20,316 bases of DNA from a virus, in IMG/VR virus record IMGVR_UViG_3300032229_001122, positions 1 to 20,316 of that record, one strand, 5' to 3'. The notes below the pieces were generated by a model. It was not told the DNA's origin, searched no databases, and saw only the letters and a list, made by a program, of their open reading frames with translations. The position numbers and the translations under genes were made by a program. Shown piece by piece: positions 1 through 20,316 of this stretch (positions are counted from its first letter, which is position 1; each line of letters begins with the position of its first letter).

Positions 1-123
1 CCCTTCGCGCCGAGACCCTCAAGAATCACCTGGATACGGAAATTCCGCGTCGGAGTAAAGGTATTGAGAGCCTGAAGCGTCACATTGAACTGATAGAGAG
101 ATTCAATGTGTCTGAAGATGGGC
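1..123. repeat. Terminal direct repeat, copy 1 (circular overlap)
   Basis: These 123 bases are identical to the last 123 bases of the window. The repeat lies within the reading frame of the major capsid protein candidate, and joining the ends restores one uninterrupted frame. It is therefore best read as the overlap of a circular sequence, giving a unit genome of about 20,193 bp. A linear genome with direct terminal repeats would split the capsid gene and is less likely. Confidence 0.93.
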
Positions 124-800
124 AGACGATAGACATAGCCGAAACCGTTGTTGACCGCGGTTTCGTTCTGAATGATCGCTGTAGCCGCCGTTCCTGGAAT
201 GTAGGCCACGTTTCCGCTGTAGCCGCTCACGCCGTAGCGCGACGGGAACAGATAGAGCGGCCCCTCTTCAAAGGTCGTCTGGTTGTAGCTGAATTTGAGA
301 TAGATCGACTCAAAAGCCGCCTGAGCAAGGTTGGTAGCCTGGACATCATCAGAGGCTTTGAGCTGCGATCCGAGTCCGGGATTGTTGGCAAGACCGAGGT
401 TATTACCGGTCTGCGAGGTCGTATCAACCTGACCAGAGACCAGCACACGGACCTGGATTGACGTAATCCATGCTTCCTGGCTGGCAGGCAGCTGACGCGA
501 CACACTCATATTGGTGTCAATTTTCGTCTTTGTATACTGCGTCGTTCCGTTCATCTCGGTCGTCTGCTGACCGACCGGAGTCGCAAAAAGCTCAAACTCG
601 TTCGCGTTGAAAGCCGTCCCCGCCGTGACTCGCGCCACGTCGTACAAGCGAAGCCCGTAGAACGAAGCCAGACGAGCGCCGGGGTTGGCCTGAATGATCT
701 GCTGGATCATTCCATACTGAGCCGGATCGACATGATCCAACGTTGATTTTGGAGCCACGCCCGCGAAGTTCACGCGGTTGGCAACTGGCATATATGACAT
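1..800 (-). CDS. Major capsid protein candidate, double jelly-roll type (N-terminal and central part; gene continues across the circle junction)
   Basis: Read on the minus strand from ATG at 800 and continued after position 1 into 20193-20181, this gives a 270-aa protein with a TAG stop. GGAG lies about 8 bases before the ATG. Visible features are DTNM-like 'TNMSVSRQLP' at about 96-105, a beta-rich 'IQVRVLVSG' at 115-123, 'GPLYLFPSRYG' at 180-190, and a C-terminal 'LPIF..IESLYQFNV' then 'RIQVILEGLG' at 226-264. From memory, similar DTNM...LP and final Q-F-x-V / R-x-x-L-x-G strands occur in double jelly-roll capsid proteins of tailless bacterial viruses. The length is close to the roughly 269-aa PM2 P2. 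Neighbouring membrane and beta-rich proteins fit a virion operon. The fold is inferred, not shown. An alternative start is the ATG at 791. Confidence 0.66.
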   Translation of the reverse strand, partial: MSYMPVANRVNFAGVAPKSTLDHVDPAQYGMIQQIIQANPGARLASFYGLRLYDVARVTAGTAFNANEFELFATPVGQQTTEMNGTTQYTKTKIDTNMSVSRQLPASQEAWITSIQVRVLVSGQVDTTSQTGNNLGLANNPGLGSQLKASDDVQATNLAQAAFESIYLKFSYNQTTFEEGPLYLFPSRYGVSGYSGNVAYIPGTAATAIIQNETAVNNGFGYVYRLPIFRHIESLYQFNVTLQALNTFTPTRNFRIQVILEGLGAK

Positions 801-858: not shown

Positions 859-1515
859 TTACATTGACATGGCATGAGCTGACTGATCGTCAGCATACGC
901 GCCATAAGGGACCATCCCAGGAGTCTGAATTCCAATTCCATTCATGCCGCTCGAATAAGCACGGTAGGGGTTGAGTCCGGGATAAGCAATCCCGATGCCC
1001 TTCACGCCCTGCGCCGCTGGAGCAGTCTCGGCCGGTCGAGGCAGGAAGACGCTCTGAGCCGTCGGAAGGATGAACGAGTTGATTACCTTCCCGCCCGCAA
1101 CGGCCATGCCGCCCAGGGTGATATCCTGCGAGAATCGCGAGAGCGGGCCGATCTTGTTAGCCAGCATTCCGAGCAGGTAGGCAACGCCCGCGGTTCGAGC
1201 AGCATCCGCCAGAGCGCCAGGACCGCCGATTGACGGGACCATGGTTGTGACGAACTGGGTCAGAGCGCCGCCACCCGCGAGGGTGAGACCCTTCGTCAGC
1301 AGGCCAAAGCCGCCGCCAGGGTTGCGACGCCGCGCGCGCCGATGCATGACGCTGCGACGCCGTTTCGGAGCCGTCGAAGCTGAATATGGGTTATGTCGCC
1401 GGGTCCGCTTGACCCGGCTGGATGACTTGCGCTTACGCATTGATTTTCCTCCAGTAGGATTGACGATCAGCAGGGAAGCCGGTCCCGGATTGATCAGTTT
1501 GACTGTTTTGGCCAT
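859..1515 (-). CDS. Basic NP-motif protein with hydrophobic glycine-rich core, likely virion protein
   Basis: 218 aa. The start at 1515 is chosen because GGAGGG lies 6 bases upstream; a longer frame from 1551 lacks a site. Residues 26-65 are extremely basic (Arg/Lys/Ser). Asn-Pro occurs at 9, 19, 42, 65 and 182, several directly after arginines (RRHNP, RRRNP). Residues 67-150 are Gly/Ala-rich and hydrophobic, with two or three possible membrane segments (about 71-93, 100-120, 132-151). The C-terminus carries two tandem copies of a 20-aa repeat, GIGI..PG..PY.AY, at about 173-192 and 193-212. It lies immediately upstream of the capsid gene in the same operon. A nucleic-acid-binding or membrane-associated minor virion protein fits, but no function is known. 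Confidence 0.85.
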   Translation of the reverse strand: MAKTVKLINPGPASLLIVNPTGGKSMRKRKSSSRVKRTRRHNPYSASTAPKRRRSVMHRRARRRNPGGGFGLLTKGLTLAGGGALTQFVTTMVPSIGGPGALADAARTAGVAYLLGMLANKIGPLSRFSQDITLGGMAVAGGKVINSFILPTAQSVFLPRPAETAPAAQGVKGIGIAYPGLNPYRAYSSGMNGIGIQTPGMVPYGAYADDQSAHAMSM

Positions 1516-1547
1516 TATCGACCCTCCATCATTCCCGCGCGGGAATG

Positions 1548-2639
1548 TCAATTGTGAATGCCGTCCGCTTCGATGTGGTATGCTCCGCCGTCGATGTGCA
1601 TTAAGCCCTCTTCATCAATGCGAAGCGTTGGACGCTCTCCGGTCTCCTCTCCCAGCTCGTGAAAGTAAATTGCCGGGGTAGGTTGTCCCAGGTGCGGTTT
1701 ATCCGTCTCATATTCGACGCGAACGATCTCGCCACACTCTTCGCCCGCGGGGTTTGCCCTGTAGCGCCCGCCGACCACGTGAAGCCGTTGCTTGTGATCT
1801 GCTGCCAGAATCGGAGCAGCCGCGCCATTGAATTTCCATTTGCGCCCGTCGGCTGTCTCGATCAGACGAAGCGCGCCAAGTTTGGCGACATTTGCCGGAG
1901 TGCCAGTCGGAGCGCTCACCGAGTTTTGGCGCTTTGCACGTTTGCCGCTGAAGCGCTCAAATAGCTCTGTGGTTTTGCTTTTCGCTTTGCCAGGATTGCG
2001 CCGCGCACGTCCCACAATGCGAAGTGCACGGCCAGTAAAAGCATCTTGCAGCCGATGCCATTCACTTATCTCACGTGGAGACGCTTCGCCCGCCTCCACC
2101 AAATCACGGAGGAGGAGCGCGCGCGGGGAATCGATCGACCGCGCCGCACTAGTTAAACTGGCGGAACCCACGTAACGCCGGGTTCCGCGTCGGGGATTTT
2201 GACGATTCTTGGCCGCGCGACCTTGTGTGTACTTGGGGTTGATATATCTGCTATTACTCGGAACGTCCACCAACCATTCATCTGCATGTGTGTTCACGCC
2301 AGGCGGCTGTATGTTGGATGAAGAGCGCCATTGCTCGTCAGCTAAAATTAACTGCTTAACATCCCTTATTGCATAGTCTAAGGTAATCGCAACTTCTTCC
2401 GAAAGCTGATCCTTAGTGAGTTTATAACTATCAGTAGATTTTGGTAGCAAATATCTTAATTCACTAAACAGATTATTTTCCAAGTATCCCGTTGCATAAC
2501 GTTCAGCGTACGCACCATTCCGCTTGTACAGCTCTTTGAGTAGTCGGTAAAGCTCATTTGCTTTAGTTGGTTGAAGTTTTAGCAACTTTAGAAACTGTTT
2601 TTTTTCTGTGACGGTCGGATTATGTTTTCGTCGACGCAT
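1548..2639 (-). CDS. Modular NP-linker protein with a conserved phage-type C-terminal domain
   Basis: 363 aa, with AAGGGAAG just upstream of the ATG at 2639. The protein starts MRRRKHNP, and Asn-Pro recurs at 7, 134, 148, 215 and 296, mostly with neighbouring Arg/Lys. Residues 9-105 are helical and charged. Residues 165-210 form a second short helical block. Residues about 224-363 look like one domain ending 'GEETGERPTL....G....GGAYHIEADGI.N'. From memory this ending (G-E-x-x-G-x-R-P ... GG-x-Y ... GI-x-N, with an F-x-G near its start) recurs in uncharacterised phage proteins that also follow RRNP-like sequences; I know no function. The AT-richer 5' half (about 2230-2640) contrasts with the GC-richer 3' half, suggesting mosaic origin. 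It sits among virion genes. Confidence 0.88.
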   Translation of the reverse strand: MRRRKHNPTVTEKKQFLKLLKLQPTKANELYRLLKELYKRNGAYAERYATGYLENNLFSELRYLLPKSTDSYKLTKDQLSEEVAITLDYAIRDVKQLILADEQWRSSSNIQPPGVNTHADEWLVDVPSNSRYINPKYTQGRAAKNRQNPRRGTRRYVGSASLTSAARSIDSPRALLLRDLVEAGEASPREISEWHRLQDAFTGRALRIVGRARRNPGKAKSKTTELFERFSGKRAKRQNSVSAPTGTPANVAKLGALRLIETADGRKWKFNGAAAPILAADHKQRLHVVGGRYRANPAGEECGEIVRVEYETDKPHLGQPTPAIYFHELGEETGERPTLRIDEEGLMHIDGGAYHIEADGIHN

Positions 2640-2657
2640 GGATCTTCCCTTGTTAAC

Positions 2658-2774
2658 CTAAACTTCAAAAGTGATGTAATGCCCTGTTTTAGTGTAAACC
2701 GTAGGGTTGCCATACTCGTCCAGGTCTGAGCCGTAATAGGCTGGCATGCTATGCAAGCCGGGGCCGTATTTCAT
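2658..2774 (-). CDS. Small 38-aa protein between two NP-linker genes
   Basis: An uninterrupted frame from ATG at 2774 to TAG at 2658 fills the gap between its neighbours, starting 5 bases after the upstream stop and ending 18 bases before the next start. The product begins MKYGPGLHSMPAYYG and ends in YITFEV. It is rich in Tyr and Gly and contains a 'YGNPTVY' stretch, so it shares the Asn-Pro motif of its neighbours. No clear ribosome site lies before the ATG; translation could be coupled to the upstream gene. Tight packing on both sides and the non-random composition support it. It could otherwise be a decayed fragment of a neighbouring module. Confidence 0.6.
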   Translation of the reverse strand: MKYGPGLHSMPAYYGSDLDEYGNPTVYTKTGHYITFEV

Positions 2775-2779
2775 CGCAA

Positions 2780-3985
2780 CTAAAGTGTGTAGATTATGGC
2801 TGTCTCAACTTCCCCCCCTACTGGGCCGGTTACACTGTTTTTATACGAAAAAAACGGATGCCCGTCATACTCAATCACCGCCCCCGCGGGAAGCTTGGCA
2901 ACATACGCCCGAACCGCTGTCTCCTCTTCGTCACTCAGCCCCGAATAGTCCCCGTACTCAATAGCAGGGATTGCCCAGGTCGGAATCAATGCTTCGTCCC
3001 ACTCAGGGTTGTTGCGTCGAGCGTTTGATTTTACATACCGCGCTGGGTTTTCTTTATACCATGGCGGGCCGCTTATTGGAGTAGTCGCCGGAGCTTTATC
3101 ACTCTCTGTTATCGTATAACCATCACTGATAATCCGCTCTTCAGCTGCGTCAAAATAGGATTCAGCAACATCAAGCATATTATGGTCAAACCTGCGATAC
3201 ACTCCCCCATAGTACACATAATAATCTGTTTGAGGATCATTCAATTGCACCACGCCCAGCGTTAAAACAATCCTATTTCCATCTTCTAATCGTTCAAATA
3301 CCACCCTGCGCATTTGAAAAACTTCTCTAGGATTATGCACCTTTGCAACGTCTAGATGATCAATTTTTTCCGCGTGTATGTGAGTGCCATTTCTCCGCTT
3401 GCCGTTTGGCGTATACTTCATGGTCCCCAAGCTGGTATACAGCCCGGTATAGCTCTCAAAAATTGACCGCAATTGATCAGCATAGACGCCCTCAATCGCT
3501 TTGAGCGTTGTGAGCTTAAGACCGCGATATTTCGCAAATGTTACTGTGTACAAATCATCAGGAGTCAATTCAATCGTTACAAAATTTGCTCCGGATTTAT
3601 TCTGTGGAATTTTAAATTGTAGCTTGTTTGAGCTGCCAACAAAGCTGCGACTCCCTGTCATCGTCGCAAACCGATTTCCGCCTAGTTGCGCGAAAATAAT
3701 ATCAGCCACCGCCGGATTCGTTTTTCTTTTTCGCGCCGTCTCTAACCGTTCCGCATGATACTGTCTCTGACGTTCAATGCGTTCACGCGCCGCAATATCT
3801 TCTCCGCCTCGCCCCAAATACATATCAGAGCTAACTTTTTCCGCAACATACTTGCCAGCACCATATTGCGCTTTCGCGCGCTTCACTGCTTCGACACTGG
3901 TAAAGCCGGGATAGATGCCAACTTCCACGCCATCGCGTGAAATCAGATAACGAGGATTTGATCGTCGAGCCATTTTCCGTTTCAT
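2780..3985 (-). CDS. Multi-domain NP-linker protein (mosaic of mobile-element domains)
   Basis: 401 aa. The start at 3985 has GGAG 9 bases upstream. Asn-Pro occurs at 10, 90, 218, 313 and 326, usually after basic residues, and these sites appear to separate modules. Residues 12-88 are a charged block. Residues 92-187 contain 'AQLGGNRFATMTGSRSF', then N-F-V-x-I-x-L, DLY and TGLY, matching from memory a domain common in phage and plasmid proteins. Residues 220-310 are a beta-rich module with YYVYYGG. Residues 328-401 contain 'AIEYGDYSGLSDEEE' and '..PFFSYKNS', matching another small mobile-element domain I have seen as separate proteins. It is not a known enzyme. Its place between anchored virion proteins and the capsid gene suggests a virion component or packaged cargo. 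Confidence 0.88.
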   Translation of the reverse strand: MKRKMARRSNPRYLISRDGVEVGIYPGFTSVEAVKRAKAQYGAGKYVAEKVSSDMYLGRGGEDIAARERIERQRQYHAERLETARKRKTNPAVADIIFAQLGGNRFATMTGSRSFVGSSNKLQFKIPQNKSGANFVTIELTPDDLYTVTFAKYRGLKLTTLKAIEGVYADQLRSIFESYTGLYTSLGTMKYTPNGKRRNGTHIHAEKIDHLDVAKVHNPREVFQMRRVVFERLEDGNRIVLTLGVVQLNDPQTDYYVYYGGVYRRFDHNMLDVAESYFDAAEERIISDGYTITESDKAPATTPISGPPWYKENPARYVKSNARRNNPEWDEALIPTWAIPAIEYGDYSGLSDEEETAVRAYVAKLPAGAVIEYDGHPFFSYKNSVTGPVGGEVETAIIYTL

Positions 3986-4521: not shown

Positions 4522-5145
4522 TTACCGCCGCCTTCCCGAGGTCAGCGCGATCAACACCACGCCACCCGCGATTATTGCCCACCATGGGAACGCCGACTCC
4601 TGAACCGTATCGCCTGGCGTGATCTGTGAGACTGGTACACACCGCCCTTGAGTAATACTGAATTGCTGTCCCGCCGGACAAGGCGGAAGCTGACATTTTT
4701 TCGTTTTCGGATCGTACACAAACGGAGCAGGACAAGCACCCGCCGCGGTTGGTTTCGGTCTCGTCACTGGCCGCGCGGGGACCGCTCCTGCCGGTTGTCC
4801 TGGCCGCGTCGGAGCCGTAGGAGACGGAGCCGGGAAAGGCACACAAGCGTAGGGGTCATTGACAGGGTGATATTGGCCGCGAGGACAATAGCCCGGCAGT
4901 GGCGCTGTCGTCGGCTCTGTCGGACCATAGACCGGAAGATAATCCGCGGGATTGACGCTCGGTCCCCCGCCCCAAAATGAGCTACCAGAATCGAACGGAA
5001 ATCGATCCCACCATGCGCCCCAGTCCATCCCCGCGCCATCTCCGCCAGTGTCAGACGGCAAAAAGCCGAGTCCTCGCGCCGGTCGTGTCAGTACGCCAGG
5101 AACCATCACGGGTTGTCGGATTGGTCGTCGAGTGGGCCAGGCCAT
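4522..5145 (-). CDS. Proline- and cysteine-rich tail-anchored protein
   Basis: 207 aa. An Arg/Pro-rich N-terminus is followed by a Trp/Gly/Pro-rich stretch (about 40-75). There are three Cys-pair repeats of form C-P-x-G/P...C-x-P, with 12 to 13 residues between the cysteines, at about 87-101, 138-151 and 155-168; the first two are separated by a long Pro/Ala linker. The protein ends in a hydrophobic helix at about 186-203 followed by GRRR. The paired cysteines suggest disulfides, so the soluble part should face an oxidising compartment or the virion exterior. It belongs to the set of four consecutive C-terminally anchored proteins and is probably a virion surface or vertex component. Function unknown. 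Confidence 0.85.
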   Translation of the reverse strand: MAWPTRRPIRQPVMVPGVLTRPARGLGFLPSDTGGDGAGMDWGAWWDRFPFDSGSSFWGGGPSVNPADYLPVYGPTEPTTAPLPGYCPRGQYHPVNDPYACVPFPAPSPTAPTRPGQPAGAVPARPVTRPKPTAAGACPAPFVYDPKTKKCQLPPCPAGQQFSITQGRCVPVSQITPGDTVQESAFPWWAIIAGGVVLIALTSGRRR

Positions 5146-5925: not shown

Positions 5926-6465
5926 TCAGAATATCCTATACGTCCATTCAGAGTGCGCGGGGTTACGCCAATTCACGCCCGCGAGATGCAAGCCTTGTTG
6001 GCCATCGGCTGTCGGATCGAGGGCCACCCATTCACCATTTACCAGCGCCTCACAATAGACATGATCAAATTCAGAGCCGTTGAACTGCGCCACAAATCGA
6101 GGATGATGGCCAATGGCCGCGAGTAGCGCCGCGAGAAGAGTACATTTGTCGTCACAGTCACCCGATTGCAATTCGAGCGTGGTCATCGGATCTTGAACAC
6201 GTTCGGTCTCGACCGGATCGAGCCGATAAGCGATCTGATCCCGACAATAGGCCAAAAGCGCGGCCAGCTCTGCATGATGGTGATGGCCGAGGATGCCAGA
6301 ACAAATTGAGAGAGCAGCGCGCCGAATGCGCTCATCAAGATAGCCCGCATAATCCGGAGCAATCTCACCGCGTACCGCTGCCGCCATTGTGGCCAGTGTT
6401 CGCCGCGTCCCTTCTGCGCCGTCTGCAAGCCGCTCTCTCTGAATTGAAACTTGCCTGTTAAACAC
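5926..6465 (-). CDS. Transglutaminase-like cysteine protease
   Basis: 179 aa from GTG at 6465, chosen because TAGGG lies 7 bases upstream; a TTG at 6534 (202 aa) is possible, and the frame is open further. Residues about 60-155 match the transglutaminase-like fold: 'LQSGDCDDKCTLLAALLAAIG' at 99-119 with catalytic Cys104, 'FDHVYCEALVNGEW' with His135, and 'VALDPTAD' with Asp150. All three triad residues are present. In phages such proteins are common near structural genes, and in bacteria the fold acts as a peptidase or amidase. Being first in the late operon suggests a processing enzyme for virion precursors or a peptidoglycan-active virion enzyme; neither is shown. It also carries an RNP motif near the C-terminus (167-169). 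Confidence 0.87.
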   Translation of the reverse strand: MFNRQVSIQRERLADGAEGTRRTLATMAAAVRGEIAPDYAGYLDERIRRAALSICSGILGHHHHAELAALLAYCRDQIAYRLDPVETERVQDPMTTLELQSGDCDDKCTLLAALLAAIGHHPRFVAQFNGSEFDHVYCEALVNGEWVALDPTADGQQGLHLAGVNWRNPAHSEWTYRIF

Positions 6466-6620
6466 ACCATTTGCCCTAACAAATGCGAACAATTCCGCAA
6501 GAGCAGACTCAACCCGTAAGACGTATTTTGTCAATGGCGTTTTTTTCGGAAGCGTGGCAACATCAATAGCGCGCGAATGGCGCGAACAATGGCAAAACAA
6601 TGTAATCACATGGTGAAAAA
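6466..6620. promoter_or_regulatory. Divergent intergenic region between the two transcription blocks
   Basis: These roughly 155 bases separate the first minus-strand gene from the first plus-strand gene and should hold both promoters. On the minus strand there is a perfect TTGACA beginning at 6534, but no acceptable -10 box at 16-18 bases. No sigma70-like pair is clear in either direction, so late transcription may need an activator or another sigma factor. A tiny frame ATG-GTG-AAA-AAA-TGA at 6610-6624 overlaps the start of the plus-strand gene. Confidence 0.5.
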
Positions 6621-7913
6621 ATGACACGAAAAAAAACTGTATTACCTGACGCCGAAAGCACTTCCCTGCCCTCTGAACCTGTCGCCGTGCAAACTCACGT
6701 CGTAACAACTCGATACAAAAAAGAAATTCCAGTGAGCGAGGTGGAACAATCGCCGGATGAGGATTCAGGGCTGATCGAGCCTGAAATCTATGTCGAGGAT
6801 TACGAGGGACCAGAGATCGAACCGCCCGCCCGCTTTGCTCCAACCATCGAGCCGCCGCCGAATGCAAATGATTCTATCGCTCAAATGCTGGCCGATCTGC
6901 AAATCGAGAAGCGCGCGCACTCCTGGACGATGGTTGTTGAACGTCTCCCAAATTACGATCGAGATGGGCGCGGGGATGTCGGAGCCAAACGAGTAAACTG
7001 TGGAACGCGCGCAATGTCCGAAGATTTCATCGAGGAGATTCGCCGCGAGTTTGCCAGGCCCAGCAAGCCAAATCATTTCCGAGTGACGATCAAACGAGAC
7101 GGAAAGATTTTCGCTCACTGGCCAGACGTGATCAGTCTCGAACCACCAGCGCCGGAAGAGTTGCCAGCGCTCGATGCGCAATTTGCGCCCGCGCCGCCAG
7201 TCTCCGCGCTTCCCGCTTCCGCTCCTCCGCCAGGGTTGACGGATCTGGTAAAACAGCTCAAACAGCTCAAAGAGATTCAGTCCCTTCTCTCTCCGGAACC
7301 GATTGCCAATCCTGCCGCCGGATCGCTGACCGAAGAGGCGGCGCTGTTGCGCCTATTGTCGTCGAGTGATGAGGTCATCTCGAAGGTAACAGATAGGATT
7401 TCAAAGAAACTCTTTCGTGACGATCATGCTACCGATGGCGCGGAATGGATGCCGCTTGTCAAGTCGTTTGTTGATAACGGACCCGCCATTGTGGCCCAAA
7501 TATTTCAAGGCCTTCAACAATTGCGCTCCGCGCCGGTTGCTGTAGAATCGCCAGGACAAGCGCCAATGGTCGCCAATCCCGCGCCGCTCCCGCCGCCGGT
7601 CTCGCCTCAACAACCTACGCCACCGGTCGAGAATGGCCCCGCGCCAGAGTTGGTGCTACTCGGGAATGTGATCAGATATCTCGAAATCAATGCACCGGTA
7701 GAGGCCGCTGCCACGTTTGTTGATGCATATACAGAGCAAAACCCAGCTTTGAATCCACTGGTTGAATCGTTCCTTGCAATGTCGCCGGACGATTGCCGCG
7801 CATTTATGAAAACCTTCTTCCCGAATGCCGCGCCAATCCTGGACCGTGAGACGGCAAGCGATTGGATCTCACGCTTGCAAAAGATTCTCTCCGTCGAGGA
7901 GGTAGATAAATGA
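6621..7913 (+). CDS. Proline-rich multidomain protein of unknown function
   Basis: 430 aa. The N-terminus (1-95) is acidic and disordered. Residues about 98-175 form a compact domain with 'VVERLPNY' and 'FIEEIRREFA', then V-T-I-K-R-D-G-K-I ... PDV ... LEPP. A Pro/Ala linker follows (178-206). Residues 207-300 are helical, with L-K-Q-L repeats and a hydrophobic stretch, then a second Pro-rich linker (about 313-345). A helical C-terminal domain spans 347-430 ('DDCRAFMKTFFPNAAPIL'). No Walker A, polymerase or nuclease motif is visible. Only a weak GGTG precedes the ATG. It opens the plus-strand block and overlaps the next gene by ATGA, so the two are translationally coupled. Modules joined by Pro-rich linkers suggest a scaffold or adaptor role. 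Function unknown. Confidence 0.88.
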   Translation: MTRKKTVLPDAESTSLPSEPVAVQTHVVTTRYKKEIPVSEVEQSPDEDSGLIEPEIYVEDYEGPEIEPPARFAPTIEPPPNANDSIAQMLADLQIEKRAHSWTMVVERLPNYDRDGRGDVGAKRVNCGTRAMSEDFIEEIRREFARPSKPNHFRVTIKRDGKIFAHWPDVISLEPPAPEELPALDAQFAPAPPVSALPASAPPPGLTDLVKQLKQLKEIQSLLSPEPIANPAAGSLTEEAALLRLLSSSDEVISKVTDRISKKLFRDDHATDGAEWMPLVKSFVDNGPAIVAQIFQGLQQLRSAPVAVESPGQAPMVANPAPLPPPVSPQQPTPPVENGPAPELVLLGNVIRYLEINAPVEAAATFVDAYTEQNPALNPLVESFLAMSPDDCRAFMKTFFPNAAPILDRETASDWISRLQKILSVEEVDK

Positions 7914-8200
7914 GATTCGTTCATCTGATCAATACGCTGCGAGAAATCGCAGAGAAGGCCGACCGTGAGCGCTTGCTGGTTTGGTATCCGCAATTTTGCC
8001 AAGAATACCCGGAAGCCGCCGCGGTGATTGACGAGTGCCTAGCGTTACCGCCTGAACGAGTACGCGGGAAACTCGAAGAAAAATTTCCTCTGCTGATTTC
8101 ACTGGCGCTCCTGGCAAACCCTGAATGGTCTAGCTCTTTTGACCGCGCGCTGATCTATCTCCATCACGTTTTGACTGAAAGGAAAAAGCTCAATGCCTGA
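7910..8200 (+). CDS. Small helical protein, unknown
   Basis: 96 aa; its ATG overlaps the upstream stop (ATGA), so translation is coupled to the 430-aa gene. The product is all-helical by composition: amphipathic 'LINTLREIAEKADRERLLVWY', then 'AAAVIDECLALPPERVRGKLEEKFP', then a hydrophobic C-terminal helix. It has no membrane segment or known motif. It resembles the C-terminal helical domain of its upstream neighbour in style (both contain P-E-x-x-x-x-ID-E / SP-DDCR-like capped helices), but homology is not established. It is probably a partner of the upstream protein. Confidence 0.8.
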   Translation: MRFVHLINTLREIAEKADRERLLVWYPQFCQEYPEAAAVIDECLALPPERVRGKLEEKFPLLISLALLANPEWSSSFDRALIYLHHVLTERKKLNA

Positions 8201-8471
8201 ATTGAAACCAAGTGAAAATCTAACGCCTCTGGCAATGTTTGGAATGATAATTCTGGGAAATACGGCCATCAATGTTGCTCATATTTGCTCAGTCATCGAG
8301 AACACGCCGCAAGATGAGCCGTCATCATTTTGGTTTGAAATTGAGTTGGTTAATGGTCATGTAATCGATCTACGAGAACAATTTGCCATTGGGTTTCGCG
8401 ATCAGTTGCAAACTATGCTACGCCATGCTCAATTCGCCGCACCCGCTGGAGGATCGTTGATCAAACATTGA
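8193..8471 (+). CDS. Small conserved-looking protein, unknown
   Basis: 92 aa, overlapping the upstream gene by 8 bases. It has a hydrophobic stretch 'FGMIILGNTAINVAHICSV' at about 16-34 that reads like a beta-strand/turn/strand, then a charged F-E-I-E-L-V-N-G-H-V-I-D-L segment typical of a small two-strand domain, then a helix 'REQFAIGFRDQLQTML'. This strand-NG-strand-helix layout is common in small phage and plasmid proteins of unknown role. It is the last gene of the three-gene set 6621-8471, which ends before the promoter and terminator at 8468-8571. Confidence 0.8.
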   Translation: MPELKPSENLTPLAMFGMIILGNTAINVAHICSVIENTPQDEPSSFWFEIELVNGHVIDLREQFAIGFRDQLQTMLRHAQFAAPAGGSLIKH

Positions 8472-9873: not shown

Positions 9874-10115
9874 AGAGACCAGCATGGGCAATGCGAGGAT
9901 GTTCATTTCCCGGTTGTCAATCACTGGCAAAAGCAGAATGCCAGGCATATGACAACGCGTTGCACCGCCCATGCCGGTTGCCGCTTTGCGATTGGCATAC
10001 GGGCCAGCGTGGAGGTTTTACATTTTGTCATCTGCACCGAACGGGGGCTGGAGTAGTCGCCAGTCCTGAACCACAACCAATTCAGGCCGGGTTATTTGAC
10101 CCGCCTGAATATTGA
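9870..10115 (+). CDS. Cys/His-rich small protein, probable zinc-binding
   Basis: 81 aa, overlapping the upstream gene by ATGA. The Cys and His pattern is C-x4-C at 11-16, then C24, H32-x2-C35, C40-x2-H43 and C53-x2-H56, which is enough for one or two zinc sites. The C-terminus is Pro-rich ('PEPQPIQAGLFDPPEY'). The fold looks like a treble-clef or ribbon found in small phage proteins, but no specific family is recognised. Its place between a repressor-like protein and the replication initiator suggests DNA or RNA binding. Confidence 0.78.
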   Translation: MKRPAWAMRGCSFPGCQSLAKAECQAYDNALHRPCRLPLCDWHTGQRGGFTFCHLHRTGAGVVASPEPQPIQAGLFDPPEY

Positions 10116-10165
10116 AGGGAAGGGAAGCCTAAGAAAAACTTGCTCTGACAAAACACGTTTAAGCC

Positions 10166-10188
10166 ACCGGGGGCCGCTGGTCCCCGGT
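10166..10188 (+). other. Hairpin in the leader of the replication initiator
   Basis: ACCGGGG (10166-10172) pairs with CCCCGGT (10182-10188) around a 9-base loop. It ends 18 bases before the ATG at 10207 and just before the ribosome site GAAAGGG. There is no T tract. It may modulate initiator translation. Confidence 0.4.
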
Positions 10189-10206
10189 TCATCATCGAAA
10201 GGGAAT

Positions 10207-11064
10207 ATGAATTTACTTCAAGTGTTGGATAGACCAATAGCGTTTCATCGGATCTTTGCCGAATTGACGGGATCTGTTTCTGCCGGATTGATGCTGTCCC
10301 AGGCTGTTTACTGGTCCGGAACAAACAAAGCCGGAGAGCGCCGAACGGCGAATTCTGATGGCTGGTTCTACAAGTCACAACAGGAGTGGTACGAAGAGAC
10401 CATGCTGACCCGGAAAGAGCAGGAAACCGCTCGAAAACATTTGCGGGATCTTGGAAACGCTGATATTTGGGTTGAGGAGATGAAAGGCATGCCGCGCCGT
10501 CTCTTCTATCGGTTGGATCTCGACAAGCTTCAGCTGCTCATTTTGGACATGCAAGCTGCGCAAAAGGGACATGCAAGCATGTCCGAAAGGGACATGCAAG
10601 CTGCGCAAAAGGGACATGCAAGCATGTCCGAAAGGGACATGCAAGCTGCGCAAAAAGGGCATGCTATTAATGAACAGAGATTACACAGAGATTACACAGA
10701 GACTACTACACCTTTTTTCGACAATCGCGCTCCGCGCGAGTCGAAGAAAAAAAGGGGGGGTAAATTCTCTTTTGATTATTCTTTTGAATCCCTCTCCGGA
10801 TTGTTTACGGAACATGAGCATGCGTGGTTGGTTGCCAATTGTCCCAGAATCGAGACCGAAGCCGCAAGCCGTGCTTTTCTGGCATATCACAATGAGAAAC
10901 AGACAGGGTTTCGCTCTGCGCGCGCCGTATTGGCCGCCTGGCGTGGTTGGATGGTCCGGGCAGAGGGTAGGGCAGGGGCCGCGCCCAAAAATTCAATAAC
11001 GGGCCGGTCTGGCTTAAATGCGGCCGACCTGGAGAGCCTTAGACTTGCCGGAATTATCGACTGA
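10207..11064 (+). CDS. Replication initiator, phage O-like winged-helix protein with internal origin
   Basis: 285 aa from ATG 10207 (AAAGGG upstream). Residues about 10-105 resemble the N-terminal winged-helix domain of phage replication initiators: 'SAGLMLSQAVYWSGTNKAG', then DGWFYKSQQEW, then L-T-R-K-E-Q-E-T-A-R-K-H-L-R-D-L-G. Residues 114-153 are a 15-aa tandem repeat (D-M-Q-A-A-Q-K-G-H-A-S-M-S-E-R, 2.7 copies) encoded by 45-bp DNA repeats that look like origin iterons. A basic linker (176-187) leads to a helical C-terminal domain (188-285). In lambda, protein O binds iterons inside its own gene and recruits the host helicase. The same logic is inferred here, but I see no helicase or helicase loader, so host enzymes are probably used. 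Confidence 0.8.
   Translation: MNLLQVLDRPIAFHRIFAELTGSVSAGLMLSQAVYWSGTNKAGERRTANSDGWFYKSQQEWYEETMLTRKEQETARKHLRDLGNADIWVEEMKGMPRRLFYRLDLDKLQLLILDMQAAQKGHASMSERDMQAAQKGHASMSERDMQAAQKGHAINEQRLHRDYTETTTPFFDNRAPRESKKKRGGKFSFDYSFESLSGLFTEHEHAWLVANCPRIETEAASRAFLAYHNEKQTGFRSARAVLAAWRGWMVRAEGRAGAAPKNSITGRSGLNAADLESLRLAGIID
10545..10664 (+). repeat. Iteron array, candidate replication origin
   Basis: A 45-bp unit is repeated at 10545-10589 and 10590-10634, with a partial third copy from 10635. The core GGACATGCAAGC occurs at 10545, 10567, 10590, 10612 and 10635, with a degenerate GGGCATGC near 10658. The spacing is 22 or 23 bases, about two helical turns, so sites lie on one face. Alternate cores extend to GGACATGCAAGCATGTCC, an 8-bp inverted repeat with a two-base centre. 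This is the classic layout of initiator-bound iterons, placed inside the initiator gene. Confidence 0.75.
10678..10711 (+). repeat. AT-rich 11-bp tandem repeats next to the iterons, possible unwinding element
   Basis: AGATTACACAG is repeated exactly at 10678-10688 and 10689-10699, followed by a degenerate AGACTACTACA. The period of about one helical turn, the position 14 bases past the last iteron, and the following purine and AT-rich tract (10739-10795) fit a duplex-unwinding region. It is part of the initiator coding sequence. Confidence 0.5.
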
Positions 11065-14355: not shown

Positions 14356-14525
14356 TTCCACGTTTTGAGTAGTTCGGCAAATGCCGCCTCATTCGCCTTT
14401 GTCTGGCCGTCCGCCTGTTCGAGCAGCGCCGCGGCATCGAGACCGCGCCGCTTTAGTTCTCGCTGAAGTTCGACCAGCGCCCGGAGCAGCACAACTGTGA
14501 TCAAGTCGAGTGCCTGTCCTGTCAT
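14343..14525 (-). CDS. Small coiled-coil protein, end of the late operon
   Basis: 60 aa, ATG overlapping the upstream stop (ATGA). A hydrophobic start 'ALDLITVVLLRALVELQRELKRRG' is followed by 'AAALLEQADGQTKANEAAFAELLKTW'. Both are amphipathic helices of coiled-coil type. The first helix might dip into the membrane but is interrupted by Arg and Glu. As last gene of the lysis cassette it may be a lysis accessory. No family recognised. Confidence 0.72.
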   Translation of the reverse strand: MTGQALDLITVVLLRALVELQRELKRRGLDAAALLEQADGQTKANEAAFAELLKTWKARE

Positions 14526-14992
14526 TTGCCACCACCTTTCACCAGCTTTGCCGTTCTGATGGTTTCATCGAGCAGCGCAAGGATCGTTTCAACCTGGCGC
14601 AAATTGCGCGCAATCTCCGCCCGCTGGCCGTCGCTGAGTTTGGTAAATTCTGGATCTGAGAGACGCGACGTGACAACCTGACGCGCGCTGCTGACAATCG
14701 CCAGTAATCGCGCCTGGCCGTCACCCGTCAATCTGAGAGATCCATCCGGAGTGAGATATCCGCGGGCCGTCGAGATCAGATCTCCATTGAGCCGGTTGAC
14801 CTGCTGCAAGTCCTCGACGATCCGCGCGCCTGTCTCTTTGCTGATGGTCCCCGTCTCAACCTGAGAGGAGACCAGCGCGCCCGCCGTATCGAGATAGCCC
14901 GCAACACGATCGACATTCACGGCAAACTGTTTTGACTGGTCGCATGATCCGCTGACCAACAACAGAGCGATCATTACGAATTTACTAGCCAT
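14522..14992 (-). CDS. Lipoprotein-like helical protein of the lysis cassette
   Basis: 156 aa. The N-terminus is a short signal: MASK, a hydrophobic FVMIALLLV, then S-G-S-C-D. The Cys at about 17 could be lipidated, but the -3 position is Ser, so the lipobox is imperfect. The +2 residue is Asp, which in enterobacteria retains lipoproteins in the inner membrane. The rest is long helices (25-60, 60-80, 100-150) rich in Gln, Leu and Asp. Its position after a holin-like and a coiled-coil membrane gene suggests an outer spanin-like or related lysis role. It is larger than most outer spanins, so this is tentative. Confidence 0.75.
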   Translation of the reverse strand: MASKFVMIALLLVSGSCDQSKQFAVNVDRVAGYLDTAGALVSSQVETGTISKETGARIVEDLQQVNRLNGDLISTARGYLTPDGSLRLTGDGQARLLAIVSSARQVVTSRLSDPEFTKLSDGQRAEIARNLRQVETILALLDETIRTAKLVKGGGK

Positions 14993-15188
14993 TGTTGGAG
15001 GTCTCCGGAAGGGGCGATTTTTTCAGGTATGCAATCACGCCAATTAGCGCGCCCGCGCCCGCCACGCTGGCCAGTTTGCCGAGACCGGTCGAGAAGTTGA
15101 ATTCGACAGGATCGACTAGAATGACTGAAAGGGAATTGACCGCGCCGCCAATGAGCGCCGCCAGCAAGCCATGTAACCAAATATTCAT
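14985..15188 (-). CDS. Two-helix membrane protein, holin candidate
   Basis: 67 aa. GAGGAC precedes the ATG, which overlaps the upstream stop (ATGA). Two membrane segments: 'WLHGLLAALIGGAVNSLSVILV' at about 4-25 and 'KLASVAGAGALIGVIAYLKK' at about 38-57. A charged tail with two Lys follows. Size, helix number, Gly/Ala richness and position two genes from a muramidase match class II-type holins, which let the muramidase reach the cell wall. Function is inferred from context. Confidence 0.72.
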   Translation of the reverse strand: MNIWLHGLLAALIGGAVNSLSVILVDPVEFNFSTGLGKLASVAGAGALIGVIAYLKKSPLPETSNNG

Positions 15189-15469
15189 TTGTGGTCCTCG
15201 TGTTGAAGTAGGGTTTTCACATCCGCCTTGATCTCATCGAGCGTGTCAGATAACGACTCAAGGCGCTTTTCAAAATCCGCGTTTCTGTGAGCGCTGGTGT
15301 CTGTCACATGACCGCCCACGGTTGCTTCGAGAATCGACAAACGCCGGGAATGGTTTTTTGAGTGAAACACCAACCGCGCATAACCGATAATATTGCCGAC
15401 GATAATTCCCGCCGCCGTGAGCGCCTCGCCCACGTGATCAGATAGCCAATTCTCCATGCGAGTTTCCAT
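15185..15469 (-). CDS. Single-helix membrane protein with coiled coil, spanin- or holin-like
   Basis: 94 aa. A short N-terminal tail, one membrane helix at about 16-34 ('TAAGIIVGNIIGYARLVF'), then a long heptad-type helix from 42 to 90 ('RLESLSDTLDEIKADVKTLL'). This layout resembles inner-membrane spanins (N-terminal anchor plus periplasmic coiled coil) and also some phage hemolysin/holin accessory proteins. Lies between the muramidase and the holin candidate with overlapping genes. The exact role is open. Confidence 0.74.
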   Translation of the reverse strand: METRMENWLSDHVGEALTAAGIIVGNIIGYARLVFHSKNHSRRLSILEATVGGHVTDTSAHRNADFEKRLESLSDTLDEIKADVKTLLQHEDHK

Positions 15470-16093: not shown

Positions 16094-16390
16094 CTATACC
16101 TCTGGCGCATTTGTGACGGCTGACACCATGTCAATTACGTCCTGAGTCACCACAGTAAACCGCGTAGCTTCCACGCGCGCTTTTAGTGTCGACCATTCTT
16201 GTGAATCTAGCTCAATCTGATCATCGGCGCGCTTTAGCTTATTCGCCACGCTGACAAGCGAGGCTAGTTCGTTAACTGTTGCCCCGTCTGGCACAAATTC
16301 AAGGAATGCAATAAACTGCGTCTTATAGTCCAACACTTGCACTCCCGTTGACGTAACCATGTCTACACGTTTCAGCTTAATTGATTTCAC
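16094..16390 (-). CDS. Small protein following the spike gene, possible accessory
   Basis: 98 aa; the ATG lies 14 bases inside the end of the spike gene. The sequence begins basic (MKSIKLKRV), then reads 'LASLVSVANKLKRADDQIELDSQEWSTLKARVEATRFTVVTQDVIDMV'. The pattern of a helix, 'L-E-L-D-x-x-E-W-x-x-L-K', and a final helix is one I recall from small genes of phages, often near tail fibres or structural genes, without known function. Coupling to the spike suggests a chaperone or structural partner, but that rests only on position. Confidence 0.78.
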   Translation of the reverse strand: MKSIKLKRVDMVTSTGVQVLDYKTQFIAFLEFVPDGATVNELASLVSVANKLKRADDQIELDSQEWSTLKARVEATRFTVVTQDVIDMVSAVTNAPEV

Positions 16391-18497
16391 TGGTAATCAC
16401 CTTGCTTTCTATATCGGTCGTTCTAGCGTGTAACTCTTTAATGGCGTTTACACACGCATAAATTAAATCAGAGGCATTCAACGTGAAAATATTTGTTGTC
16501 TCTGTGTCACTTGGGTTTAACAGCGCCGGAATTTCCTGAATCAATTCCGGCATAATTGATAGGACATCCTGCGCAATTAGTGAAACATCTGTTCGGCCTG
16601 TCACCGTGCCTGCCAAGCCGTTATACTCAAACCTTTTCGGCGCTAACTGTAACAGTGTATCTAGTCCGCGTTCGTAATCGCGAATATTTGTTTTCACTCG
16701 CTGATCAGAAATCACCGTCCAGGTAGCAGATCCGGCATAATTTGTAAGACCCGCTGACACGTACACGCCCGCGGTAAATGAGCTGCCAAGCACCGTCCCA
16801 ACAAAAATGCCATATGCGTTTGTACTTGCAACGTAGTTCACGTTTAACCCGTAACCGTTTGTAATAGTTCCGGACCCGCGATTTACAAAAGCGCGGAAAC
16901 CATTTGCTTCTGGTGTTGTTCCCGTTGTGAGAATTTCTACTTGTCCTTGAATCCCGCTCATTCGGTTTGTTACCGATCCCGCGCCCAAGTACGCATAGCA
17001 GATCAGAGAGACAATTTCCGACACGCTTCCCGAACCATTATGGCGCGCGAAATTGGCTAACCCCTGCAACACGCCACCATTAAACGCGCTGTTATGAATG
17101 CAAGCATTTGCGCCGCCTGCGTACACTGCACCGGGGTTAGTGGCCGCCGTGTTGACTACCGTCAATTGTGTGCTTGCTGCAAAGGTTGTGCCAGTTGTGT
17201 TAGTGGTATTTCTGTTGGCGTTATATGCCAACATTTCCACACCGTTCACACTGCCAGCAATCTCAAGCGCCGCCGTCACGCCTGTTGTTGTCCCAAGGTT
17301 TAGCGCGCCTCCGTTCGCGCCAGAAAGAACGCGAATTCGACCGGTAGCCAATCGAGCTAACTGAACATCCGGAGCAACGGTGGGACTAGATGTCCACCCA
17401 AGTTCATACGCTTGGTTTAAAAGAAAATTGCCGTTGGCCGCGTGTCCCCAGGCAACATTAGTCCCGCCCGCGAATAATGTAAGATGGCTGCCTGACGAAT
17501 CTACGCCAATCCCGCTACCGGTAGCAATGCCGCCAACCACAAACCCCGGACTGCCTGCGCTTTGTCCAGGCACTACAAATCGATAATTGCCGGTTGCTGG
17601 CGTCGCCGCTATACCTGCGAGAAGCGTCCCGCTCGCGTTCTCATAACGGAAAGGGAAGTTATTTGTCAGACTCGACAACACTCCCTGTTGCAGGGTGAGC
17701 AGCGCCGCCGCATTGTCTCCGCCCTGACGCACCAAAATGATTTCCGCGGTTTGCGCCGCGTTGCCCGTCACTCGAAGCGCCGTCACCGCCGCGCCGGTAG
17801 TGACAAGATCCACCGTCGGAGATATGGCCGCGTTGAAAACAAAACTGTTCGAGCCGCCGAACGTCCCGCCACCCGCGTTATACTGAATGTTGGTGCTGAC
17901 TCCGCCAGGAGAAGCGCCGCCACTGGCCGTCAATTGGCCCGCTGCCAACGTGAGACCCGCGCCGATGCTGATCTCCTCGACCGCTCCCGTGCCCGCGGTA
18001 GTCCGTCCGAGTATTCTGGCTGTCGATTGTGTGAGGCCGCTCGATGTGATCAGACCGGACAGCGCCACACCCGTCACCGCCAGAGATCCCGCCGCCAGGC
18101 TGAGATTCGCGCCGACTGTGATCTCCTCGACCGCTCCCGTGCCCGCGGTAGTCCGTCCGAGTATTCTGGCCGTCGATTGTGTGAGGCCGCTCGATGTGAT
18201 CAGACCCGCGGTAACAACATTGGTCCACGCTCCACCATTCTCAGAGACCTTGAAATCTGTCCCATCAAAATAGATTCCGCCCTGACTCGCCCCCGATACG
18301 GCTGGCGCGCTTCCTGGCGCTTGAAATCGGATTGCTCTATCAGTGATGTTTTTAGTCACCACTGCAAACAGATCGTTCAGCGTCGATTTAACATTCTGGC
18401 TGGCCGGGACCGCTGACAGATCCACCAGAGGAACAAGATCTGTTGGAATCTGCCCGCCCGCCAAATCTGGCATGGCTGTAATTTTTTCGCTGGCCAT
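16377..18497 (-). CDS. Receptor-binding spike/fibre with C-terminal S74 self-cleaving chaperone
   Basis: 706 aa; the ATG at 18497 is preceded by GAGGA. The N-terminus (1-60) carries 'DLAGGQIPTDLVPLVDLS', typical of fibre attachment regions. Residues 98-197 are two tandem 50-aa repeats ('SGLTQSTARILGRTTAGTG'). The middle is a Gly/Ser/Thr/Asn-rich beta-structured shaft. The last 110 residues are a peptidase S74 intramolecular chaperone: 'SDQRVKTNIRDYERGLD' with nucleophile Ser597 and Lys602, then L-I-A-Q-D-V and a C-terminal coiled coil. In known fibres this domain trimerises the shaft and then cuts itself off before the Ser. Here it probably forms trimeric host-binding spikes at capsid vertices. 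Confidence 0.92.
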   Translation of the reverse strand: MASEKITAMPDLAGGQIPTDLVPLVDLSAVPASQNVKSTLNDLFAVVTKNITDRAIRFQAPGSAPAVSGASQGGIYFDGTDFKVSENGGAWTNVVTAGLITSSGLTQSTARILGRTTAGTGAVEEITVGANLSLAAGSLAVTGVALSGLITSSGLTQSTARILGRTTAGTGAVEEISIGAGLTLAAGQLTASGGASPGGVSTNIQYNAGGGTFGGSNSFVFNAAISPTVDLVTTGAAVTALRVTGNAAQTAEIILVRQGGDNAAALLTLQQGVLSSLTNNFPFRYENASGTLLAGIAATPATGNYRFVVPGQSAGSPGFVVGGIATGSGIGVDSSGSHLTLFAGGTNVAWGHAANGNFLLNQAYELGWTSSPTVAPDVQLARLATGRIRVLSGANGGALNLGTTTGVTAALEIAGSVNGVEMLAYNANRNTTNTTGTTFAASTQLTVVNTAATNPGAVYAGGANACIHNSAFNGGVLQGLANFARHNGSGSVSEIVSLICYAYLGAGSVTNRMSGIQGQVEILTTGTTPEANGFRAFVNRGSGTITNGYGLNVNYVASTNAYGIFVGTVLGSSFTAGVYVSAGLTNYAGSATWTVISDQRVKTNIRDYERGLDTLLQLAPKRFEYNGLAGTVTGRTDVSLIAQDVLSIMPELIQEIPALLNPSDTETTNIFTLNASDLIYACVNAIKELHARTTDIESKVITSEIN
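17969..18058 (-). repeat. Tandem repeat in the spike gene, copy 2
   Basis: Ninety bases nearly identical to 18119-18208, offset by 150 bp (50 codons). Together they encode two 50-aa modules at the start of the shaft. Near-identity at DNA level indicates a recent duplication and a likely site of length variation. Confidence 0.9.
18119..18208 (-). repeat. Tandem repeat in the spike gene, copy 1
   Basis: Partner of the repeat at 17969-18058; the two differ at only a few bases over 90. It encodes the first 50-aa shaft module of the spike. Confidence 0.9.
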
Positions 18498-18681: not shown

Positions 18682-19173
18682 CTAAAATCCTGTGGTGAGC
18701 GCCTGAGTCTCCTGCAACGAATCGACCACGCGTGCCGGGACAAAATACCCATAAGCGATCGTCCGGACAATCCATGTCCCAGTTGCCGGTATTGGCGTTG
18801 TCGGAGTGAAGATCAGCCGCGCATAGCGCTCTGATGGAAAAATCAGCAGTACATCAGTATCAAGATAGGCTGTTGCCCAATCTTGACCAGCAGCCGTTAA
18901 ACTTGGACTATCCGCAATATTCCACACTGACGCATGAGGTGGGAACGTGCGATAGAAACAATAATCGGGCATGGTCTCGTCAGCATTGGTGTAATAGACC
19001 TGAGTGCGCAACACCACCAAGCTCGAATTGGTTGGAACACGGGTCGCCGCCGCCACAAACGATCCGTAATCGGCCGTCAGATCATAATCGATGCCGAACA
19101 TGTGCGGGGTAATCTCATGATATTTGACCCCACTCATCTCCGCGAGTAGGCGCATGTGTCTAAGCTGCAACAT
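18682..19173 (-). CDS. Beta-rich minor structural protein
   Basis: 163 aa from ATG 19173, chosen for GGGGAGGTG upstream; it overlaps the previous gene by 14 bases. The sequence is beta-rich: 'SLVVLRTQVYYTNADET', 'VLLIFPSERYARLIFTPTTP', then T-G-T-W-I-V-R-T-I-A-Y-G-Y-F-V-P. The last two strands (aligned as R-x-x-x-L-x-F-T...T-W-x-V) resemble the C-terminal strands of the two upstream proteins. No enzyme motif. It is probably a penton, spike-base or other minor capsid protein. Confidence 0.84.
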   Translation of the reverse strand: MLQLRHMRLLAEMSGVKYHEITPHMFGIDYDLTADYGSFVAAATRVPTNSSLVVLRTQVYYTNADETMPDYCFYRTFPPHASVWNIADSPSLTAAGQDWATAYLDTDVLLIFPSERYARLIFTPTTPIPATGTWIVRTIAYGYFVPARVVDSLQETQALTTGF

Positions 19174-19594
19174 TGATTGCACCTCCCCGCAAGTCTCTGA
19201 CACCAACGAGAGTTAGAGTGTCTGCTGGATTCCCCGCCGGAATTATGTAGCCTGTTGGGACCGTTAACGCGATTTGAATCCGCTTGCCAGGTGAAATTAC
19301 ATAGGGAGCGGGCAACATCCGGACAGGTGAAACAGATCCGGTATCAATACCCGCCACCGCCTCAATAGGCGTACTGTAGAAGGGCGACCAGATATCCGGA
19401 GTCCGCGATTCACACAGCTGAACGGTGAATCTGGGCAGCGCGCCAGTGTACGAAATCACAATGTGAAAGCCCAGCAAATTTACAGCCTCGTCCACCGGGG
19501 TCGAATACCATAGCGAACGCCCTGAAATGGCTCTACGCACGGCGCTAGTGCCGAGCGGAATAGATTCAAACCACGGAATGAGAGACGCAATCAT
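19160..19594 (-). CDS. Beta-rich minor capsid protein candidate, paralogue of the upstream gene
   Basis: 144 aa, AGGTGA just before the ATG. The protein begins hydrophobic ('MIASLIPWFESIPLG'). The rest is beta-rich and ends 'APYVISPGKRIQIALTVP', then T-L-T-L-V-G-V-R-D-L. This ending aligns with the upstream protein's 'CPYFLSRQGKLQMDFTN', then S-I-T-W-V-G-L-K-L-F, indicating a paralogous pair. Both look like the final strands of a single jelly roll. In tailless viruses such proteins form pentons or spikes. The inference is from pattern and position. Confidence 0.83.
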   Translation of the reverse strand: MIASLIPWFESIPLGTSAVRRAISGRSLWYSTPVDEAVNLLGFHIVISYTGALPRFTVQLCESRTPDIWSPFYSTPIEAVAGIDTGSVSPVRMLPAPYVISPGKRIQIALTVPTGYIIPAGNPADTLTLVGVRDLRGGAINVAA

Positions 19595-19601
19595 AATTCA
19601 C

Positions 19602-20060
19602 CTAAACAAACAGTTTCAGGCCGACCCACGTAATTGACGCTGAAGCACCTGCCAGGCCGGTCGCGCTGTTCGTGAAATCCATCTGGAGTTTTCCCTGACG
19701 GCTCAGGAAGTAGGGACATACCAGAGACAGTATCGGCATCACTTGCGTGGACGCGCCTGCAATGGCTGTTACTGGCGTTCCGCTGGTCGTCGAGCCTGTT
19801 GCCGCCTGTAGCACATTCCAGCCGTAACCGTTACCAGTGTCAGTAATCCTGAGATTTACCTGACTGTTACTGAAATTAGCATGCGCGCCGAACAGGAGCG
19901 CATCACTGTCGACCTGTGGCGTGAAACAGGTGACACGCTCTGACGCCGTAGAACCATCGAAGCCGATCAGCGAAGTCAAATAGAGTGGTTGCCAGGTTTT
20001 ATACTTGCTGAGAATCGCCTTGACGTGATCCGCAAAATATCCCGAAAAAAGACCGTACAT
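19602..20060 (-). CDS. Beta-rich minor capsid protein candidate
   Basis: 152 aa, AAGGG 7 bases before the ATG; first gene after the major capsid protein. Residues 40-150 are beta-rich: 'FTPQVDSDALLFGAHANFS', 'RITDTGNGYGW', T-P-V-x-A-I-A-G, 'PYFLSRQGKLQMDFTNSA', and final S-I-T-W-V-G-L-K-L-F-V. From memory, DTG-x-G-Y, TPV-x-AIAG and T-x-VGLKL appear in unnamed phage structural proteins. The C-terminal strand pair also resembles the end of the major capsid candidate (Q-F-x-V...R-I-Q-V-I-L-E-G). It is likely a single-jelly-roll vertex or minor shell protein. Confidence 0.84.
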   Translation of the reverse strand: MYGLFSGYFADHVKAILSKYKTWQPLYLTSLIGFDGSTASERVTCFTPQVDSDALLFGAHANFSNSQVNLRITDTGNGYGWNVLQAATGSTTSGTPVTAIAGASTQVMPILSLVCPYFLSRQGKLQMDFTNSATGLAGASASITWVGLKLFV

Positions 20061-20180: not shown

Positions 20181-20316
20181 CTAGCCCGTGACGCCCTTCG
20201 CGCCGAGACCCTCAAGAATCACCTGGATACGGAAATTCCGCGTCGGAGTAAAGGTATTGAGAGCCTGAAGCGTCACATTGAACTGATAGAGAGATTCAAT
20301 GTGTCTGAAGATGGGC
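20181..20316 (-). CDS. Major capsid protein candidate, C-terminal end (same gene as 1-800)
   Basis: On the minus strand this stretch enters from the terminal repeat and ends with TAG at 20183-20181. In the closed circle only 20193-20181 adds new sequence (last residues GVTG-stop) to the frame that starts at 800. The rest duplicates 1-123. It encodes the final beta-strands 'TPTRNFRIQVILEGLGAKG' of the 270-aa capsid candidate. Confidence 0.66.
   Translation of the reverse strand, partial: PIFRHIESLYQFNVTLQALNTFTPTRNFRIQVILEGLGAKGVTG
20194..20316. repeat. Terminal direct repeat, copy 2 (circular overlap)
   Basis: Exact copy of bases 1-123. See the first copy for interpretation. Confidence 0.93.

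Follow-up and report, generated by a model that had tools for sequence, protein, structure and literature searches.

Tailless membrane-type phages of bacteria with single jelly-roll capsid proteins are represented by very few isolates (P23-77, IN93 and SSIP-1), and PMC6356626 assigns all of them to extreme habitats. P23-77 encodes two single-barrel capsid proteins, one small and one large, in adjacent genes (PMC4958249); P23-77 and IN93 are Thermus phages (Matshushitaviridae, Helvetiavirae) with circular genomes of 17-20 kb and an encoded packaging ATPase. For SSIP-1, a tailless membrane phage of 43.8 kb with the P-loop ATPase gp40, the labels "two-MCP" and "single jelly roll?" are used in PMC6260650, PMC4958249 and PMC6356626. 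The archaeal virus SPV1 (Portogloboviridae; host Sulfolobales) has a circular dsDNA genome of about 20 kb, the single jelly-roll proteins VP4 and VP10, an inner membrane and a nucleoprotein core of VP1 and A-form DNA, and there is no ATPase among its nine assigned genes (PMC8459092). In double jelly-roll viruses (Bamfordvirae) a packaging ATPase is usual, and it is absent in FLiP and the Odin group (PMC5894146).

The virus analysed here, a circle of 20193 bp known from sequence alone, shares its circular form with SPV1, P23-77 and IN93, and the SPV1 capsid protein is also the best PDB match of the full-length model of its putative capsid protein. It differs from SPV1 by the lack of a sequence match to this protein and by the possession of a lysozyme, a fibre and an O-like initiator. 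With SSIP-1 it has in common a homologue of gp34 and several C-terminally membrane-anchored proteins, whereas no packaging ATPase comparable to that of SSIP-1, P23-77 or IN93 was recognised in it. The resemblance to PM2 and FLiP concerns the length of the capsid protein (PM2), the jelly-roll fold of each barrel, the presumed membrane and, for PM2, a virion endolysin that is also annotated with a membrane segment; unlike these two, only one barrel is predicted here, and no profile match was obtained. The virus probably represents a new lineage of phages that lack a tail, build their capsid from a single jelly-roll protein and, again probably, contain a membrane. In the literature covered, on jelly-roll metagenomic viruses, SSIP-1, SPV1, Helvetiavirae and tailless prophages of Acidobacteriota, we found no paper that describes this group in its title or the beginning of its abstract.

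A gene split by the ends of a circular record

The window, i.e. the whole stretch of 20316 bases that was analysed, is a virus record whose bases 1-123 are identical to bases 20194-20316, and these identical ends indicate the circle mentioned above. On the minus strand, an ATG-initiated ORF starts at position 800 and runs off base 1 after 266 codons; resumed at 20193, it gains four codons (GVTG) and a TAG stop, leading to an intact protein of 270 aa. The stretch AGGCGGAG directly 5' of the ATG resembles a ribosome site. Five relatives were read whole (G001, G002, G004, G005 and G006; G003 is close to G002 and was left out). End repeats were detected in four of them (0, 127, 62, 127 and 87 bases, respectively), and in all five the gene is internal to the record, intact and identical in its end (GLGAKG[VI]TG before the stop), so that the junction-spanning gene can be regarded as real.

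The initial annotation had proposed exactly such a gene, and circle closure as well as the relatives bear this out. Its remark that gene callers would miss the gene on the linear sequence was overstated, as the linear record already contains the open-ended ORF of 266 codons, and a gene caller allowing run-off at contig ends would report such an ORF as partial. The likeness in size to PM2 P2 (269 aa), the positions of the motifs DTNM (residues 95-98), LP (104-105) and FPSRYG (185-190), and the location within a structural module (Table 1) were all found as it had described them.

Table 1. Positions of the features in the window, with the basis of the assignment or further details
Feature	Position	Strand	Remarks
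Putative major capsid protein gene, main part, 266 codons	1..800	-	last 13 bases at 20193-20181 across the junction
Small basic RxNP-motif protein, immediately upstream of the capsid gene	859..1551	-	basic RRRNP protein at the same place in Acidobacteriota elements
xNP-module protein, 363 aa	1548..2639	-	family upstream of the capsid gene in 3/3 distant elements (E 2.5e-37, 2.4e-33, 1.4e-29)
Second xNP-module protein, 401 aa	2780..3985	-	phrog_9437 domain of unknown function
176-aa protein, C-terminal transmembrane segment	3991..4521	-	hydropathy
207-aa protein, hydrophobic C-terminus ending RRR	4522..5145	-	under the hydropathy threshold used
155-aa protein, C-terminal transmembrane segment	5150..5617	-	hydropathy
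101-aa protein, C-terminal transmembrane segment	5619..5924	-	hydropathy
Transglutaminase-like protein	5926..6867	-	conserved part 5926-6438; homologue of SSIP-1 gp34
430-aa protein of unknown function	6621..7913	+	one block together with the 96-aa (7910-8200) and 92-aa (8193-8471) proteins
O-like replication initiator	10096..11064	+	45-bp direct repeats 10545-10679 within the gene
156-, 67- and 94-aa small proteins, likely remaining lysis set	14522..15469	-	94 aa: weak holin/anti-holin match, E 0.0038
Phage lysozyme (PF00959), C-terminal transmembrane segment	15471..16091	-	segment by hydropathy
706-aa fibre or spike, C-terminal Peptidase_S74 chaperone	16377..18497	-	
174-aa conserved protein, same module	18682..19206	-	relatives begin at internal MLQL
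144-aa protein, probably paralogous to that of 152 aa	19160..19594	-	hhalign probability 57-67%
152-aa protein, second in conservation among structural proteins, candidate second capsid or penton protein	19602..20060	-	
Final four codons (GVTG) and stop of the 270-aa gene, circle closed	20181..20193	-	
Duplicate of bases 1-123, terminal direct repeat of the circular assembly	20194..20316	.	

Conservation and module

Six IMG/VR records encode the full-length 270-aa protein with 77-91% identity, and when the 37 window genes were compared with the five relatives it was the best conserved protein across the set, followed by the 152-aa protein (64-90%). G001 is the closest relative, and there some short proteins equal or exceed the 270-aa protein in conservation (up to 100%). 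The relatives also preserve the order of the genes within the module. An alignment of nine sequences, including three homologues at 23-27% identity, revealed TNM as well as P, G, SG and G of FPSRYGxSGxxG as invariant in all nine. Sequence searches gave no match of the protein to any known capsid protein, no family in Pfam, PHROGs or NCBIfam, none among PDB sequences (best E 0.29 and 0.37), and no match in 50,697 phage records or in the genome contig collection. Repeated scans of IMG/VR with the family returned the same six records only, and none with the proviral protein. Class-wide searches of 385 and 369 genomes (the classes of Telmatospirillum and of a beta-proteobacterial MAG) gave 0 matches, which carry little weight without a positive control.

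Upstream of the capsid gene, the proteins of window 1548-3985, and likewise those of L065 604-3495 and L066 4109-5914 from distant relatives, consist of small domains joined by basic [KR]xNP linkers, and the way in which these modules are joined into fusions varies from relative to relative (363, 401, 680, 696 and 964 aa). For the transglutaminase-like family, comparison with SSIP-1 gp34, which is annotated as structural, led to an HMM E value of 9.1e-19 and an hhalign probability of 97.7%, and the presumed Cys-His-Asp triad is invariant in 6/6 rows; such domains are common, with a match in 10 of 14 control genomes. Relatives of the block of 430-, 96- and 92-aa proteins adjoin the transglutaminase gene in the G199 element (see below) as well. 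The fibre with the S74 domain is present only in the window and G001 among the ten records tested. The direct repeats in the O-like gene comprise three 45-bp units, two of them identical and one with 73% identity, and are likely an iteron-type origin. The repeats inside the initiator gene are arranged as in the lambda origin.

A Walker A motif was not found in any ORF of at least 100 codons in the window or in G004; in the other relatives such ORFs are few, short and not common to them, and in the new Acidobacteriota elements the matches are isolated and chance-like. The same script was positive for all five controls (SSIP-1, P23-77, IN93, PM2 and FLiP). By motif, the group thus has no recognisable P-loop packaging ATPase. 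Taken together with the C-terminal membrane segments and the gp34 homology, this points to a tailless single-barrel phage whose virion would contain an internal membrane.

Relatives in Acidobacteriota

A search with the lysozyme led to the Acidobacteriaceae assembly L050 (G007), whose capsid match (E 0.0058, two stops) was taken as chance. When a profile of the capsid family was run against 396 genomes of Acidobacteriota, one match was obtained (G199, E 1.2e-6), as again with a wider profile (1/396), and a search of the 119 genomes of the order of G199 gave three, namely G199, G1216 and G1185. All three homologues are 23-27% identical to the 270-aa protein and have the same neighbours.

The G199 copy lies in an element of about 10.7 kb within a 177-kb contig, with ordinary chromosomal genes on either side. 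It carries the capsid gene (E 2.5e-9), an xNP-module protein (2.5e-37), the transglutaminase-like gene (1.1e-21), counterparts of the 430-, 96- and 92-aa genes (1.1e-3, 1.3e-4 and 8.5e-3, respectively), membrane-anchored small proteins, a basic RRRNP protein and, after the capsid gene, a tyrosine-recombinase-like gene identified by eye. As replication or lysis genes were not seen in these 10.7 kb, the element may be decayed or satellite-like. The G1185 contig C80 (L066 and L068; 24,023 bases) has a 119-base end repeat and therefore represents another complete circle, distantly related to the window. Its capsid protein shares 23% identity with that of the window, and the same module is present. 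Two DNA-methylase-like genes were identified by eye on this circle. G1216 contributes an 8.9-kb fragment with the same gene order. A 319-aa protein is encoded directly after the capsid gene at L065 5052-6008 and L066 7506-8462. Possibly, it is a fused counterpart of the 152- and 144-aa pair.

As evidence for a host, the integrated copy in G199 is better than a circular contig assigned to a genome bin, which is weak in this respect. The link to Acidobacteriota concerns distant relatives of the window virus, and their occurrence in these assemblies speaks against a Sulfolobales host.

Predicted fold of the 270-aa protein

AlphaFold was applied to 266 aa with seven sequences (model 1, mean pLDDT 43) and to residues 59-266 (model 2, mean pLDDT 46). 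Both models are of low confidence (zero residues at pLDDT of at least 70; pTM 0.43), and both contain the same eight strands (approximately residues 71-83, 93-100, 109-122, 166-172, 175-181, 220-232, 236-244 and 253-265) together with a helix at about 150-164, while the approximately 60 N-terminal residues are predicted to be helical. Foldseek with the full-length model gave the SPV1 capsid chain 6oj0_Z as first PDB match (E 2.9e-4, probability 1.00); with model 2 the same chain was found only at rank 4 (E 0.019), and every match had an E value of at least 0.01. Against BFVD, 51 matches with E of at most 0.001 were obtained, chiefly unnamed or uncharacterised proteins and some circovirus-like capsids, with no decisive family. 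With VIA, residues 70-266 of the model were matched to one barrel of PR772/PRD1 P3 (34-240 of 390; Z 8.7 and 7.9, down to 7.7) and one barrel of the STIV capsid protein (2-160 of 344; Z 7.2), and model 2 with one barrel of the FLiP capsid protein (1-159 of 310; Z 6.9), where according to the tool's own note Z below 8 may reflect merely a common arrangement. For model 2, the highest-ranking rows were jelly rolls of the subtilisin family, with Z 8.5 for Kex2 and 8.0 for furin. The absence of a family from these lists does not exclude that family.

The homologues at 23-27% identity fit this strand assignment. Each has 22-24 deleted residues, none of them in a strand of the prediction, which assigns 84 of the 266 residues to strands, and the internal deletions fall at 133-147, 199-205 and 213-218, all predicted loops; in two homologues, insertions of 1-2 residues occur at strand residue 220. 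A single eight-stranded jelly roll after a helical arm is supported, albeit weakly, as the predicted fold.

Identity of the 270-aa protein

From its conservation, the synteny of its neighbours even at 23-27% identity, the jelly-roll matches to viral proteins and the absence of a tailed-phage head gene among the 30 window proteins scanned, the assignment of the 270-aa protein as the major capsid protein is supported, indirectly. We consider it rather probable that it serves as a single-barrel major capsid protein in a lineage of tailless phages whose circular genomes measure about 18-24 kb and whose virions probably contain a membrane. The initial annotation had called it a double jelly-roll major capsid protein. 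Of this, the second half is supported and the first is not: the fold comparison it had proposed was carried out and yielded eight strands and one-barrel alignments instead of two tandem barrels. A compact double barrel of the PM2/FLiP type, forming trimeric pseudo-hexamers, would agree with the length of PM2 P2, with the ATPase-free examples FLiP and the Odin group (PMC5894146) and with the occurrence of PRD1-type, STIV and FLiP capsid proteins among the VIA matches. Each of these matches takes one barrel, yet uses up the whole of 70-266 of the model, and the helical N-terminus and the long, indel-rich loops leave little chain for 16 strands. Moreover, hhalign to PM2 P2 and the FLiP MCP gave probabilities of 0.1-0.2%, and neither protein was among the ten best capsid rows for the enlarged profiles. 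As the models are of low confidence, these results count against a double jelly roll and lower its probability without bringing it to zero; we judge it quite unlikely.

The shell could also be formed by the 152/144-aa pair, with the 270-aa protein as a non-shell jelly-roll component such as a penton, spike base or cement protein. The 152-aa protein is nearly as conserved, both members of the pair look paralogous, and the first half of the 319-aa protein weakly resembles the 152-aa family (hhalign 37%), as expected if it were a two-domain counterpart of the pair, whereas the match of the 144-aa protein to it is negligible (2.1%). The 270-aa protein is larger and more conserved, and its gene comes directly after those of the basic xNP proteins, both in the window and in each of the three elements. 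We regard the non-shell role, with the 319-aa protein as the two-domain counterpart of the pair, as unlikely. Finally, the S74 fibre, lysozyme and O-like initiator are also common in tailed phages (Caudoviricetes), which would be compatible with an HK97-fold or other head protein. This was rejected as highly improbable due to the lack of head or tail-tube genes: no terminase, portal or HK97 match was obtained with PHROGs and Pfam for 30 window proteins, no Walker A ORF of the above length is present, the record is a closed circle and both models are beta sandwiches.

Profile comparison of the favoured single-barrel capsid protein with known single-barrel systems showed no capsid similarity to SSIP-1 gp45-gp48 and at most 0.7% hhalign probability to VP16/VP17 of P23-77/IN93 in the capsid rows listed. 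Vertical single-barrel viruses (Halopanivirales, Helvetiavirae) have two single jelly-roll capsid proteins encoded next to each other; in the window, the gene of the one predicted single barrel adjoins those of the 152- and 144-aa proteins.

Proposed assembly and implications

In a possible infection cycle, the fibre with its S74 chaperone would serve attachment, and loading of the host helicase would fall to the O-like initiator, with the repeats in its own gene. On the model of vertical single-barrel viruses, copies of the 270-aa protein, perhaps with the downstream 152-, 144- and 174-aa proteins, may form pseudo-hexameric capsomers, which would assemble on a membrane patch or around an internal membrane, held by the small proteins with C-terminal anchors. 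Packaging by an ATPase may be replaced by condensation of the genome through the basic xNP proteins, reminiscent of the SPV1 nucleoprotein core (PMC8459092), and the transglutaminase-like protein is a candidate maturation enzyme. Release would involve the membrane-anchored lysozyme and the small lysis proteins.

A module of about ten conserved genes, present on free circles as well as integrated into a chromosome of Acidobacteriota, would bring the single-barrel architecture to another bacterial phylum, and the 270-aa family would provide a marker protein for finding more such viruses. The group would also add to FLiP and the Odin group another PRD1-type capsid filled without a recognisable ATPase. 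The most far-reaching proposal is an undescribed tailless Acidobacteriota phage lineage of family rank or higher that combines an ATPase-free single jelly-roll shell, genome condensation by xNP proteins, maturation by a transglutaminase-like protease and both states of a capsid-gene fusion (152 + 144 aa and the 319-aa two-domain gene); as a whole it is speculative, and we would not expect all of it to hold.

Motifs, repeats and a shared domain

A cleavage motif of the type G[LMI]G was considered for the window and rejected, as its occurrence in 6/14 module proteins was not significant (shuffle mean 4.27, reached in 107/500). In G1185, the motif GQLG occurs in 5/17 module proteins (shuffle mean 0.13, reached in 0/500) and looks like a processing site, which would be that of the transglutaminase-like protein. 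In four cases within L066 883-6552, it lies close to the N-terminal end of a membrane-anchored protein.

Two further observations concern other window genes. The fibre gene contains two 119-bp direct repeats with 92% identity (17938-18206). A domain related to the 114-aa protein encoded at 13998-14339 is found within an annotated major capsid protein gene of Roseobacter and Synechococcus phages, and in another phage within a gene annotated as capsid maturation protease.
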